A stretch of DNA of 64,000 nucleotides from Christiangramia salexigens. GTDB lineage: Bacteria > Bacteroidota > Bacteroidia > Flavobacteriales > Flavobacteriaceae. A program made the translations under genes and the position numbers. The stretch spans positions 840,501 to 904,500 of the forward strand of contig NZ_CP018153.1 in NCBI RefSeq assembly GCF_001889005.1. Reading direction: 5' to 3'. Positions within the stretch are counted from its first letter, which is position 1; each line of letters starts with the position of its first letter. Of this stretch, positions 49,423 through 53,350 are shown piece by piece. The notes under the pieces were generated by a model that was not told where the DNA came from, searched no databases, and saw nothing but the letters and a program-made list of their open reading frames with translations.

Positions 49423-50277
49423 TCACTTCAGCTTTACTTCCAGAATATTGGGGTCTCCCCCCTTCCCTTCATTAGAAATAAACATTCGGCCGGATGGACT
49501 GAAACAGATACCTTCCGGCTGAAAAAATTCTTCGGGATCTAACAGGTGCATTCGTTTTATACTTCCTTTGGGATTTAAAACAAGTAACTTTGGAATCTCG
49601 GCATCCAGAACGTATAAATAACCATCTACAGGGTTATAATTAATATCTGAGGGCCTTATTAATTTCTTGGGATTATTGATTTTTATTTTAGAAAATTCCC
49701 GGTCTGTATAATTGATCTTAATCGCCGGACTGCTTTCTAATTTCCCTGAAACCGGATCGTACTTATAGATCGCCTTATAACCTCCTTCGTCGGTTTTAAG
49801 ATTTCTATCTTTAACTGAGATAAGAAGTTTACCATCGGGACTAGCAGTGAGCCCTTCAATATTGTTTTTATATTCAAATTCCAGCTCAAATTTATCAGCC
49901 TTAACCTGAGTATTCTCAATGTTCTTTACCCGAAATAGTTTTCCATCACTTTCCGCTATCCAAAACTCATTATTTAAAATAGCCAAAGCTTCATAATCCC
50001 CCGGCTCTCCAAATTCGATTCTTTTTGTCACAGTAGAGGTCTTGAGGTCATATATAAATATAATTCCATCTTCATCCTGAATACAGGCCAGCTTGTCGTT
50101 GCCCAACCATACCATTCCGGAAATTTCATCCAGTTCATTTGGCAGATCCCATTTCTGTACGATCTCATAAGACTTTTTACTTTTATCAAAATCATAATCG
50201 TGTTCCTGATACAGAAAATAGATCAATCCAGCCAGAAATAATACTCCTAATACAATACCAGTAGTCCAACGTCTCAT
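49423..50277 (-). CDS. SdiA-regulated-type beta-propeller protein
   Basis: A 284-residue protein with an N-terminal membrane anchor or signal (about 6-23, TGIVLGVLFLAGLIYFLY) and a six-bladed beta-propeller-like domain. Repeated blade motifs include LDEISGMVWLGNDKLACIQDEDGIIFIYD, GDYEALAILNNEFWIAESDGKLF, IEGLTASPDGKLLISVKDRN, IRPSDINYNPVDGYLYVLDAEIPKLLVLN and FQPEGICFSPSGRMFISNEG. This matches the SdiA-regulated family (PF06977). Despite the name no quorum-sensing link is visible here. Location is periplasmic, tethered to the inner membrane. Its stop is directly next to the dipeptidase stop with no terminator between. Confidence 0.82.
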   Translation of the reverse strand: MRRWTTGIVLGVLFLAGLIYFLYQEHDYDFDKSKKSYEIVQKWDLPNELDEISGMVWLGNDKLACIQDEDGIIFIYDLKTSTVTKRIEFGEPGDYEALAILNNEFWIAESDGKLFRVKNIENTQVKADKFELEFEYKNNIEGLTASPDGKLLISVKDRNLKTDEGGYKAIYKYDPVSGKLESSPAIKINYTDREFSKIKINNPKKLIRPSDINYNPVDGYLYVLDAEIPKLLVLNPKGSIKRMHLLDPEEFFQPEGICFSPSGRMFISNEGKGGDPNILEVKLK

Positions 50278-50379
50278 ACTCGAATTTTAATTCACACTAA
50301 ATTTATAGGATTCACAATAGGTCGCAAAAAGATTAACAATTCTTCGAAAGCACTTCATAATCAACAAATTACTCTAAAA

Positions 50380-50410
50380 TTTGTTAAAAAAAGTTAAAGT
50401 GGTACTATTT
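50380..50410 (+). promoter_or_regulatory. Possible promoter of the micro-ORF unit
   Basis: TTTG (50380-50383) and TACTATTT (50403-50410) are 19 nt apart. The -7 box matches TANNTTTG only partly. The box overlaps the first of three GTACT repeats, which could be regulator sites. Confidence 0.4.
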
Positions 50411-50443
50411 TATACATAGTACTGTAACATTTAGCTAGGTACT
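50402..50443 (+). repeat. Three GTACT direct repeats upstream of the micro-ORFs
   Basis: GTACT occurs at 50402, 50419 and 50439, the last two within longer units AGTACTGTAAC and GGTACTGTCGT. Spacings are 17 and 20 nt. The site is just upstream of the first micro-ORF (ATG at 50482), so this could be a regulator array or part of a structured leader. Confidence 0.4.
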
Positions 50444-50481
50444 GTCGTCTATTAAGTATAATCATCAAAATTTAATTCATC

Positions 50482-50583
50482 ATGAGAACAATAATGAACA
50501 CTACCAAAAGCCGCAAATCATTCATGAGCACACCATCCAATAATCCTAAAAGAGATTGGATGGAGAGAAGACGTCACTTTTAA
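50482..50583 (+). CDS. Micro-ORF a (33 codons), Arg-rich C-terminus
   Basis: Starts ATG at 50482 after TTAATTCATC and reads MRTIMNTTKSRKSFMSTPSN..., ending KRDWMERRRHF and TAA. It is basic, with no hydrophobic segment. The end W-x-x-R-R-R-x-aromatic resembles that of micro-ORF c (WYNRRRYA). It is 1 of 3 short frames in line that share an AATTCATC leader and one terminator. No family is known to me; it could be a small regulatory protein, a peptide precursor or a spurious frame. Its shared context with a and c raises the odds of being real. Confidence 0.45.
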   Translation: MRTIMNTTKSRKSFMSTPSNNPKRDWMERRRHF

Positions 50584-50604
50584 ACGAACTTAAATTCATC
50601 AATC

Positions 50605-50733
50605 ATGCAAGTCTTTCAATCATTGATCCAGGACATGGAATTGGATTCGGGAACCGGGATCATCTCCCGGCGCCCATTTCAAAACGTGAAAGGTCTAACT
50701 CATCAGTCAGAACCTCACAGTCAAATAATTTAA
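50605..50733 (+). CDS. Micro-ORF b (42 codons)
   Basis: Starts ATG at 50605 after AATTCATCAATC and reads MQVFQSLIQDMELDSGTGII..., ending QSEPHSQII and TAA. The middle has DSGTGIISRRPF, loosely like RTGTGRMCW in micro-ORF c. It is polar, with no membrane helix. It is 21 nt after micro-ORF a. A different reading frame overlaps it (50556-50831) but lacks the repeated leader. No function can be stated. Confidence 0.4.
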   Translation: MQVFQSLIQDMELDSGTGIISRRPFQNVKGLTHQSEPHSQII

Positions 50734-50763
50734 ATTATTCATCAATCAATAAATTCATCCATT

Positions 50764-50898
50764 ATGACAACTTTTTCAAAAATCAATCAGGAATTTGGAG
50801 CTGCAAAAGCAGGCAATCAGACACATCGTGAAGCCTTTTTAAGCAACAGAACCGGAACCGGCAGAATGTGTTGGTACAACAGGAGACGTTACGCTTAG
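50764..50898 (+). CDS. Micro-ORF c (44 codons), Arg-rich C-terminus
   Basis: Starts ATG at 50764 after AATTCATCCATT and reads MTTFSKINQEFGAAKAGNQT..., ending GRMCWYNRRRYA and TAG. It is basic, with one Cys. The C-terminal W-x-x-R-R-R pattern is shared with micro-ORF a. The stop is 32 nt ahead of a terminator, as expected for the last gene of a unit. No named family is recognised. Possible roles range from a small stress protein or RNA-binding peptide to a precursor peptide. Confidence 0.48.
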   Translation: MTTFSKINQEFGAAKAGNQTHREAFLSNRTGTGRMCWYNRRRYA

Positions 50899-50929
50899 AA
50901 GACAAAAAATTCAGAAGAAGTGAATCTGT

Positions 50930-50966
50930 AAGGCCGGTAAGTCATACTTCACCGGCTTTATTTTTA
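50930..50966 (+). terminator. Intrinsic terminator of the micro-ORF unit
   Basis: GCCGGT (50933-50938) pairs with ACCGGC (50951-50956), with further AGT/ACT pairing inside, followed by a T-rich run (TTTATTTTT). It sits between micro-ORF c and the PBP gene. Confidence 0.82.
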
Positions 50967-51040
50967 AAACCTAAAATTAGCTTAAAATTTAAACGTTTAA
51001 AACAGACATTCGTTTATTTGCATGATTTTAGATTTTAAAG

Positions 51041-53350
51041 ATGATAGCTAAACTAAACAGGCATCCAAAATTAAAATGGACACTCTTAATAAGTCTAATA
51101 TTAGGAGCCTTATTCCTGTTATTCTTCGCAAGTATTTATCTCGGCGTTTGGGGTAAATTGCCCGGCACCAGCGAACTTAAAGATCTTAAGCAAAACAAAG
51201 CGACCCAGATACTGGCCAGTAATGGAGGATTACTTGGTAAGTTTTATGTTTATGACAGGCAACCAATCGAGTTTTCTAAACTCCCTCCTCACTTAATTCA
51301 GGCATTGATAGCTACAGAGGATGTGAGGTTTTATGAACATGATGGTATAGATAACCGCAGTTTGTTACGGGTTTTTTTCAAAACGATTTTACTGCAGGAT
51401 GAATCAGCCGGAGGTGGTAGCACAATAAGTCTTCAATTAGCTAAGAATATTTATGGGAGAAAGGATTATGGTGAAATTGGGATTCTAGTCAATAAATTAC
51501 AGGAAGCCATCATAGCCAAAAGACTTGAGGATGTTTATACCAAAAATGAGATCATAGAACTATATTTTAATACCGTTCCTTTTAGTGATAACACCTATGG
51601 TATAGAAAGCGCCTCGCTGAAGTTCTTTAATAAACATACTTCAGAATTAAAGCTTGAAGAAGCAGCAGTTCTGGTAGGAATGCTAAAGGCTAGTCATTAT
51701 TATAATCCACGAATATTCCCGGAGCGCAGCAGATTAAGACGAGATGTGGTTCTAATGCAAATGGCTAAATATGGCTATTTAAGTATGGAAGAAGCTCAGG
51801 AGCTTAAGCTCAGGCCGTTGACCCTGAATTACAGAAATTACAGTCCTAATACCGGTCTTGCGCCATATTTCAGGGAACAGGTACGCAAAAGCCTGAGCAA
51901 AGTTCTGGATACCCTAAAGAACAAGGACGGCAAAAAATATAATATCTACCGTGATGGTCTAATTGTAAAAACTACCCTGGATTATAACATGCAACAGCTG
52001 GCTGAAGAAGCTATGCTGGACCATATGTCCAAACTTCAGGAAGCTCATGAAGCATCTTACGGCAAATATGCTCCCTGGAAAACGGACAAAAAGCTTATCA
52101 TGGACAAAATCAAAGCTTCAGACCGATATAAAAAACTACAATCTAAAGGATTAAGCCAGGCCGAAATACATGAGGAATTAGAGAAAACACGACCTACTGA
52201 AGTTTTTGAATACTCCGGAACGGAAACAAGAGAAATAAGTACGATAGACAGTATTGCTCACTATTTAAAATTCCTGAATTCAGGTTTGCTTGCTGTTAAC
52301 CCAGAAAATGGTGGCGTTAAAGCCTGGGTTGGCGGTGTTGATTTCAGATACTTCAAATATGATCATGTTTCTCAAAGTAAAAGGCAGGTTGGTTCTACGT
52401 TTAAACCCATAGTTTATACTGCAGCATTGGAAAATGGAATGGATCCATGTTCCTATTTTTCAGTTCGAGAGGTGACTTATGATAATGGCTGGACACCTTC
52501 AAATTCATCTTCCGAAGGTGATGATCCCGACATGAATTATAACCTAAAGACCGCATTGAGCAGATCTATGAATACCATTGCTGTTAAGGTTTTAATGGAA
52601 ACGGGCATAGGAAATGTTATTACCCAAGCCAAAAAAATGGGGATTAGTTCTGACCTCCCTGCTGTACCTTCTATTGCACTTGGGACTGCATCTTTAGGAC
52701 TTGATGAGTTAACCGAAGCTTATACCAGTTATGTGAATGATGGTTATTCTGCTAAGCCATATTTTATTACCCGTGTAGAGGATGCAGAAGGAAATCTTCT
52801 GGCTCAATTTAAACCAGAAATTGCCGAGCGCAAAGCTTTTTCTGAAACCAACAGACAGCTAATGCTTAATATGATGCAGGCTACTGTAAATGAAGGGACG
52901 GCTACAAGGCTAAGAACAACCTATGGCTTGCAAAATGATATTGCAGGAAAGACCGGAACCACTCAGGATAACAAGGATGGCTGGTTTGTAGGCATCACCC
53001 CTAACCTGGTTTGTGTAACCTGGGTTGGCTCAGATGATCATCGTATAGGTTTCCGAAATACTGCAATAGGCCAGGGAGCAAACTCTGCCCTCCCCATTTT
53101 CGCCAAGCTCTACGAAAAAATGAATTCCCAACCTGAGTTTAATAAGATCACTCAGGCAAGATTTGCACCACCTCCTTCAGATCTTCGAGAAATGGTGGAT
53201 TGCCCGCCAAGCGAACGCGATAACTTCCTTGAAAGATTATTCGGGTCTAAAAAAGACGATCATTCAGAAAGATCTAAACCTAAAAAGGAAAAGAAGAAAA
53301 AAGGATTCTTTCAGCGTTTATTCGGAAAAAAGAAGAACGACGACAATTAG
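51041..53350 (+). CDS. Class A penicillin-binding protein (PBP1a/1b type)
   Basis: A 769-residue bifunctional cell-wall polymerase. A membrane anchor (about 13-33) is followed by the GT51 transglycosylase domain (about 60-240) with the catalytic Glu in IATEDVRFYEHDG and the GGSTISLQLAKNIY and KNEIIELYFNT motifs. The transpeptidase domain (about 400-700) has SxxK as Ser452-Lys455 in GSTFKP, SxN in SRSMNT and KTG in AGKTGTTQDNKDGW. The C-terminal about 40 residues are Lys-rich. It acts in the periplasm on lipid II. Its stop overlaps the convergent helicase stop by 4 nt (53347-53350). Confidence 0.95.
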   Translation: MIAKLNRHPKLKWTLLISLILGALFLLFFASIYLGVWGKLPGTSELKDLKQNKATQILASNGGLLGKFYVYDRQPIEFSKLPPHLIQALIATEDVRFYEHDGIDNRSLLRVFFKTILLQDESAGGGSTISLQLAKNIYGRKDYGEIGILVNKLQEAIIAKRLEDVYTKNEIIELYFNTVPFSDNTYGIESASLKFFNKHTSELKLEEAAVLVGMLKASHYYNPRIFPERSRLRRDVVLMQMAKYGYLSMEEAQELKLRPLTLNYRNYSPNTGLAPYFREQVRKSLSKVLDTLKNKDGKKYNIYRDGLIVKTTLDYNMQQLAEEAMLDHMSKLQEAHEASYGKYAPWKTDKKLIMDKIKASDRYKKLQSKGLSQAEIHEELEKTRPTEVFEYSGTETREISTIDSIAHYLKFLNSGLLAVNPENGGVKAWVGGVDFRYFKYDHVSQSKRQVGSTFKPIVYTAALENGMDPCSYFSVREVTYDNGWTPSNSSSEGDDPDMNYNLKTALSRSMNTIAVKVLMETGIGNVITQAKKMGISSDLPAVPSIALGTASLGLDELTEAYTSYVNDGYSAKPYFITRVEDAEGNLLAQFKPEIAERKAFSETNRQLMLNMMQATVNEGTATRLRTTYGLQNDIAGKTGTTQDNKDGWFVGITPNLVCVTWVGSDDHRIGFRNTAIGQGANSALPIFAKLYEKMNSQPEFNKITQARFAPPPSDLREMVDCPPSERDNFLERLFGSKKDDHSERSKPKKEKKKKGFFQRLFGKKKNDDN

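Follow-up and report, generated by a model that had tools for sequence, protein, structure and literature searches.

Genes and features at the locus

The window that we analysed is a stretch of 64,000 nt from Christiangramia salexigens (contig NZ_CP018153.1, positions 840,501 to 904,500 of the forward strand). On its plus strand the ORF list contains three tandem frames of 33, 42 and 44 codons, all beginning with ATG, as a first-pass annotation of the letters had reported. We refer to them as ORF a (50482..50583, 33 aa), ORF b (50605..50733, 42 aa) and ORF c (50764..50898, 44 aa), which belong to types A, B and C of the relatives described below, respectively. The set lies between the gene of an SdiA-regulated/phytase-like protein (49423..50277, minus strand) and that of a PBP1A-type penicillin-binding protein (51041..53350, plus strand), both of which we considered as outside the operon.

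A common W-x-x-R-R-R-aromatic C-terminus had been attributed to ORFs a and c only. W-x-x-R-R-R is present in both (tails WMERRRHF and CWYNRRRYA, respectively) and absent from ORF b; the residue after RRR in ORF a is His, and in this respect the description did not hold. ORF b has a profile E value of 1.7e-14, and we consider it as a diverged copy, with the tail lost, of the 44-aa type B peptide that is better preserved in relatives.

A good terminator had been placed after the last frame. A terminator-like hairpin is found at 50928..50961 on the plus strand (-17.7 kcal/mol, z -6.4) and it is followed by a T-rich sequence, but it is absent from the list produced by the consensus terminator scan.

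The three starts were also said to share a leader, and they do: AATTCATC stands directly before the ATG of ORF a and is separated from the ATG by AATC in ORF b and by CATT in ORF c. We explain these matching leaders, with or without the 4-nt spacer, as flavobacterial translation starts. In Flavobacterium johnsoniae, an A at each of the positions -3, -6, -12 and -13 favours the translation start (PMC6847099). In the window, all three starts have A at -3, -12 and -13 and T at -6; they agree with this rule in all but the last-named position. Among 341 array starts, 68% have A jointly at -3, -12 and -13, against 3% of 3427 control starts, while A at -6 is less marked (0.50 in array starts and 0.30 in controls).

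The long promoter block

Three GTACT repeats had been noted before the set, and we located them at 50402, 50419 and 50439. The first two form a dyad, GTACTAT-N7-ATAGTAC (50402..50422, plus strand; GTACTAT at 50402-50408 and ATAGTAC at 50416-50422), which is retained in relatives. Conservation there is strong in the right half ATAGTAC and in the TAC of the left half, and the dyad is a probable binding site of a regulator. The third copy is inside a promoter spacer and is not retained. Upstream from the dyad there are two GTTAA boxes with starts 10 nt apart (50383..50397, plus strand; 11 nt in the consensus of relatives) and downstream there is a core promoter, TGTAAC-N17-CGTCTATTA (50423..50454, plus strand), which we assign to the ECF type by inference. 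Going beyond the first-pass annotation, we thus read the GTACT repeats as the mark of a long promoter. The consensus upstream of the arrays of relatives consists of GTTAA boxes separated by roughly one turn of the helix, TAC-N~13-ATAGTAC and TGTAAC-N16-CGTCTWTTA.

To search for other copies, the contigs of GTDB genomes were scanned with the pattern ATAGTACTGTAACN{15,20}GTCTWTTA, which gave at least 118 matching stretches. Although the pattern allowed six spacings, 116 of the 118 matches listed have exactly the TGTAAC-N16-CGTCT type of spacing. The two differently spaced matches (L132, L155) are probable chance matches and were left out of the tail, charge, pN/pS and array counts. The 80 titles listed for the at least 118 matches name Flavobacteriaceae genera, among them Aequorivita, Salegentibacter, Winogradskyella, Eudoraea, Maribacter, Lutibacter, Mesonia and Gillisia, or else belong to records placed only as Flavobacteriaceae, Flavobacteriales or Bacteroidetes.

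With at most two mismatches, 119 of 299 Flavobacteriaceae genomes contain the long promoter, while the reversed pattern was found in 3. When genomes were drawn more widely from the order and counted by hand, it was present in 11 of 76 Flavobacteriaceae genomes and in none of the 36 genomes of g128, the genus that contributed most genomes of the family to that draw. In other families it occurred in 2 of 319 genomes, against 5 for the reversed pattern, which is the level of chance. The search patterns with N16 miss the window's own copy, whose spacer is N17.

Peptide arrays behind the long promoter

At least one ATG-initiated ORF of 20-50 aa lies behind 106 of the 116 promoters with exact spacing, and at least two behind 96 (among the matches listed). 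A pair of peptides at least 50% identical is present in 68 of these 96 multi-ORF arrays, with identical copies in 8 (among the matches listed), and the several near-copies per unit look like the outcome of selection for dose.

Among the matches listed, at least one peptide has a Trp near its C-terminus in 104 of 106 arrays and [KR]R[RK]?[YF] within its last 9 residues in 80 of 106. In a further count, the ORFs of each array were chained greedily, a procedure that may take in chance ORFs at the ends of arrays. Of the 106 peptides that stand first in the arrays of relatives, 66 contain [KR]R[RK][YF], compared with 7 of 3446 control ORFs (20-50 aa, same loci), and the mean net charge is +5.3 for 341 array peptides and +2.5 for controls.

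Conservation and selection on the frames

At the DNA level the block is matched in 21 of the 24 genomes that represent the genus, a count in which the own genome is included. In these Christiangramia (formerly Gramella) relatives, one to several 33-aa type A frames are followed by 44-aa frames of types B and C, with a similar leader before each; the frames often end in W-x-x-[KR]-R-R-[YF]. One genome without a DNA match (G012) has an array nevertheless (L182). In another (G006), neither a DNA match nor, at its core-promoter sites, an array was found, and its sole core-promoter site belongs to a DUF4870 gene. Searches at the protein level gave little: with a profile, 12 of 397 Flavobacteriaceae genomes were found at an E value of 0.01, several of them weak or stop-containing.

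A lack of conservation with synonymous-biased changes in relatives had been indicated as the result that would count against the frames. The opposite was obtained: over seven sets, in-frame pN/pS was between 0.10 and 0.49, in pairs that are non-independent and near saturation at synonymous sites. Precisely, the values were 0.438 for type A, 0.381 for type B, 0.398 for type C, 0.485 for the 28-aa class, 0.345 for the 37-aa class, 0.097 for the Aequorivita 44-aa set and 0.147 for the MRHFI set. In shifted frames, used as controls for three of the seven classes (28-aa, 37-aa and A), pN/pS was 0.56-1.54; one shifted frame of type A (0.561) is near the true frame. On these ratios we consider the micro-ORF frames as coding and under purifying selection.

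The proposal of a small operon of basic peptides was thus borne out at the level of sequence, with a synonymous bias in relatives and with one promoter block and one hairpin flanking the set. The further claim that gene calling overlooks such frames holds only in part, given that Christiangramia annotations do list many of the 44-aa relatives as hypothetical proteins (the annotation look-up covered peptides of at least 40 aa). The micro-ORFs look like real genes, which would belong to an apparently undescribed and widespread set of Flavobacteriaceae operons. That they are chance ORFs in a spacer, as the irregularity of the window's copy and the divergence of ORF b might suggest, is hardly credible, being contradicted by conservation, promoter spacing, tails, pN/pS, array linkage and starts. 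The window's array is the least regular among those that we read, and with its N17 spacer, its GTTAA boxes 10 nt apart and an ORF b without the tail, this operon may be drifting or weakened.

An additional type C copy is present in the own genome at another place (L033, G000:C1:532324-532452, minus strand). Here, as at L020 and L022, type C peptides lie between genes that we annotated by eye as an AraC-type regulator and an M3-peptidase-like protein. The upstream region of these three loci differs from the array promoter and carries a GGGGAATTATCCCC-like palindrome. At L020 and L022 there is an extra ORF of 32-34 aa, of another type.

The core promoter and a candidate sigma factor

In 24 Christiangramia genomes we found 59 sites with TGTAAC-N16-CGTCTWTT, against 1 for the reversed pattern. 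Thirty of these core sites were read: 14 precede arrays, 10 DUF4870-like genes, 5 a 74-aa gene and 1 a 492-aa gene. The DUF4870-like product is a membrane protein and the 74-aa protein has a hydrophobic N-terminus. As these non-array genes have no GTAC dyad, the arrays would have an extra input. In the own genome, the DUF4870 gene with the core promoter before it is flanked by mnmE-like and dnaN-like genes (L035/L186, G000:C1:571076); this copy was assigned by Pfam and the arrangement was seen in the loci read from 9 further genomes.

The array promoter has an AAC-type -35 and a CGTC -10 at a fixed spacing, the window's copy having N17. In Bacillus subtilis, ECF promoters of the SigX/SigM type likewise have an AAC-type -35 and a CGTC -10 about 16-17 nt apart; they resemble the array promoter in these elements and in their spacing, but they belong to another phylum and are not known to include the GTTAA/GTAC-dyad element or micropeptide arrays. 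Within the family, a study of Flavobacterium psychrophilum describes a conserved promoter motif whose -10 box contains CGT and which the authors assign to ECF sigma factors; its set (the SM6 regulon) includes an ECF/anti-sigma operon (PMC9723704). Both features are shared with the system described here. Behind the selected SM6 promoters printed in that study there are T9SS genes, genes of band-7 proteins and the structured RNA Rfp11, and no micropeptide array is named among them (PMC9723704). An ECF sigma factor very probably reads the array promoter.

Of the 13 Sigma70_r2 genes in the own genome, one (287 aa) probably encodes the primary sigma. One ECF gene (L232, G000:C1:1493738-1494196, minus strand) has TGCAAC-N16-CGTCTTTA upstream and stands in a row with an anti-sigma-like gene and an exported-protein gene. 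Its promoter looks autoregulatory; it is of the same type as the array promoter, the -35 not being identical. The product of the gene after the sigma, which is anti-sigma-like, seems to contain a single membrane stretch and matched no Pfam family over the cut-off. An ortholog of the sigma is present in 24 of 24 Christiangramia genomes, in all of which it is preceded by GCAAC-N16-CGTC, in 22 as TGCAAC-N16-CGTCT, with a -35 that differs from the TGTAAC of the arrays. This candidate was drawn from 38 two-mismatch sites in the own genome, where the reversed pattern gave 62, and it is set apart only by its conservation; at a second sigma locus (L240) there is a site with N17 that fits more loosely. 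We give about even chances that the sigma at G000:C1:1493738-1494196 is the one that drives the arrays.

Interpretation and alternative readings

As best explanation overall we favour, with some reserve, a sigma-driven operon transcript that encodes short basic peptides. RNA polymerase with an ECF-type sigma would act at TGTAAC/CGTCTATTA and produce a single transcript from near 50460, with the GTTAA/GTAC-dyad element as a second input to the promoter. The transcript would end at the hairpin 50928-50961, and its three A-rich starts would yield the peptides.

The working product could instead be the RNA itself, as a structured or repeat-bearing sRNA in which the frames are incidental or secondary. 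The F. psychrophilum Rfp11 RNA does sit behind an ECF-type promoter (PMC9723704), and the whole predicted transcript in the window folds with a z of -2.4. Without the terminator hairpin, however, z is only -1.5 and the fold is equalled by 8 of 100 shuffles, Rfam gave no match over threshold on 50200-51100, and both the in-frame selection and the good translation starts argue for peptides. On balance we consider an RNA product improbable. Two sub-threshold, snoRNA-like Rfam matches were taken as chance. The possibility that Rfp11 is the same locus was set aside, the genus g128 being without the promoter; Rfp11 was compared by description and g128 is a bare genus label.

Tandem tiny ORFs and cationic, Trp-bearing sequences may also recall toxins, either type I toxin-antitoxin peptides or cationic bacteriocins. 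The Ldr and Ibs genes of E. coli are tandem, very short type I toxin genes with hydrophobic products and antisense RNAs. The arrays share this layout of tandem tiny ORFs, but their peptides are basic, under one promoter, and hydrophilic rather than hydrophobic as judged from net charge and, by eye, from hydropathy. Leaderless bacteriocins are similar to the array peptides in size, charge and Trp content; in contrast, the window locus has no adjoining transporter or immunity gene, and one conserved promoter extends over many genera. PADLOC and PHROGs also gave no match with the array peptides tried, and a toxin seems quite improbable.

A third reading takes the ORFs for leader or arrest peptides that act in cis, with control exerted through their translation. 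The conserved basic tail abuts the stop codon, and in the 28-aa class (n=82) the C-terminus is the most strongly conserved part, with W21, N22, R25 and R26 conserved at 98-100%. The tail is encoded with mixed Arg codons, however, and in the window the set ends with a terminator-like hairpin. Moreover, an SdiA-like or PBP1A gene adjoins only 20 of the 118 promoter matches listed (tblastn with the window's proteins), hence the operon is not bound to those genes and has no fixed downstream gene. Control in cis is, in our judgement, very improbable.

We rank these three readings as less likely than that of cationic stress peptides, to which we return. The array peptides have no signal or membrane stretch by eye, and those tried had no family over the cut-off in Pfam or NCBIfam. 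AlphaFold2 gave no confident fold for peptide c (pLDDT 61, pTM 0.24), and neither the promoter motif nor the peptides were found described in the open-licence literature. We tentatively suggest, as a possibility with appreciable doubt, that these multi-copy peptides remain cytoplasmic and serve a stress response, with their W/R-rich tail binding an anionic partner, for example RNA, the ribosome, DNA or the inner membrane. More broadly, though we would put it at somewhat under even odds, there may be a Flavobacteriaceae-wide ECF stress response that has, as one main output, arrays of cationic peptides of about 28-45 aa with W-N-x-[KR]-R-R-[YF] tails. These would be an unrecognised class of multi-copy stress effectors, with some anionic component of the cell as their binding partner, and the composite promoter would add a dedicated regulator to the sigma.

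To our knowledge, little is known about sigma-controlled small proteins in the Flavobacteriaceae, a family of environmental bacteria. In roughly two fifths of the genomes sampled from this family, a promoter with nearly every letter preserved drives tiny genes that are not easily looked up and lack a family model. The locus offers a ready handle: a single promoter, one candidate sigma and a small number of tiny genes, with variants in nature that have from one to several peptides.

Secreted-looking proteins behind the long promoter

Among the matches listed, the other 10 of the 116 promoters with exact spacing are 4 that run into the end of the locus DNA and 6 that precede secreted-looking proteins (L062, L077, L080, L087, L128, L162). 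At five of these loci (L062, L077, L087, L128 and L162), the protein is acidic and repeat-bearing, 151-188 aa in length, with a signal-like N-terminus; the one examined had no Pfam match. At L087 and L128, a second acidic repeat-bearing gene adjoins the first. Secreted-looking proteins of 109 and 115 aa were also observed, directly behind the promoter at L080 and behind an array at L092.
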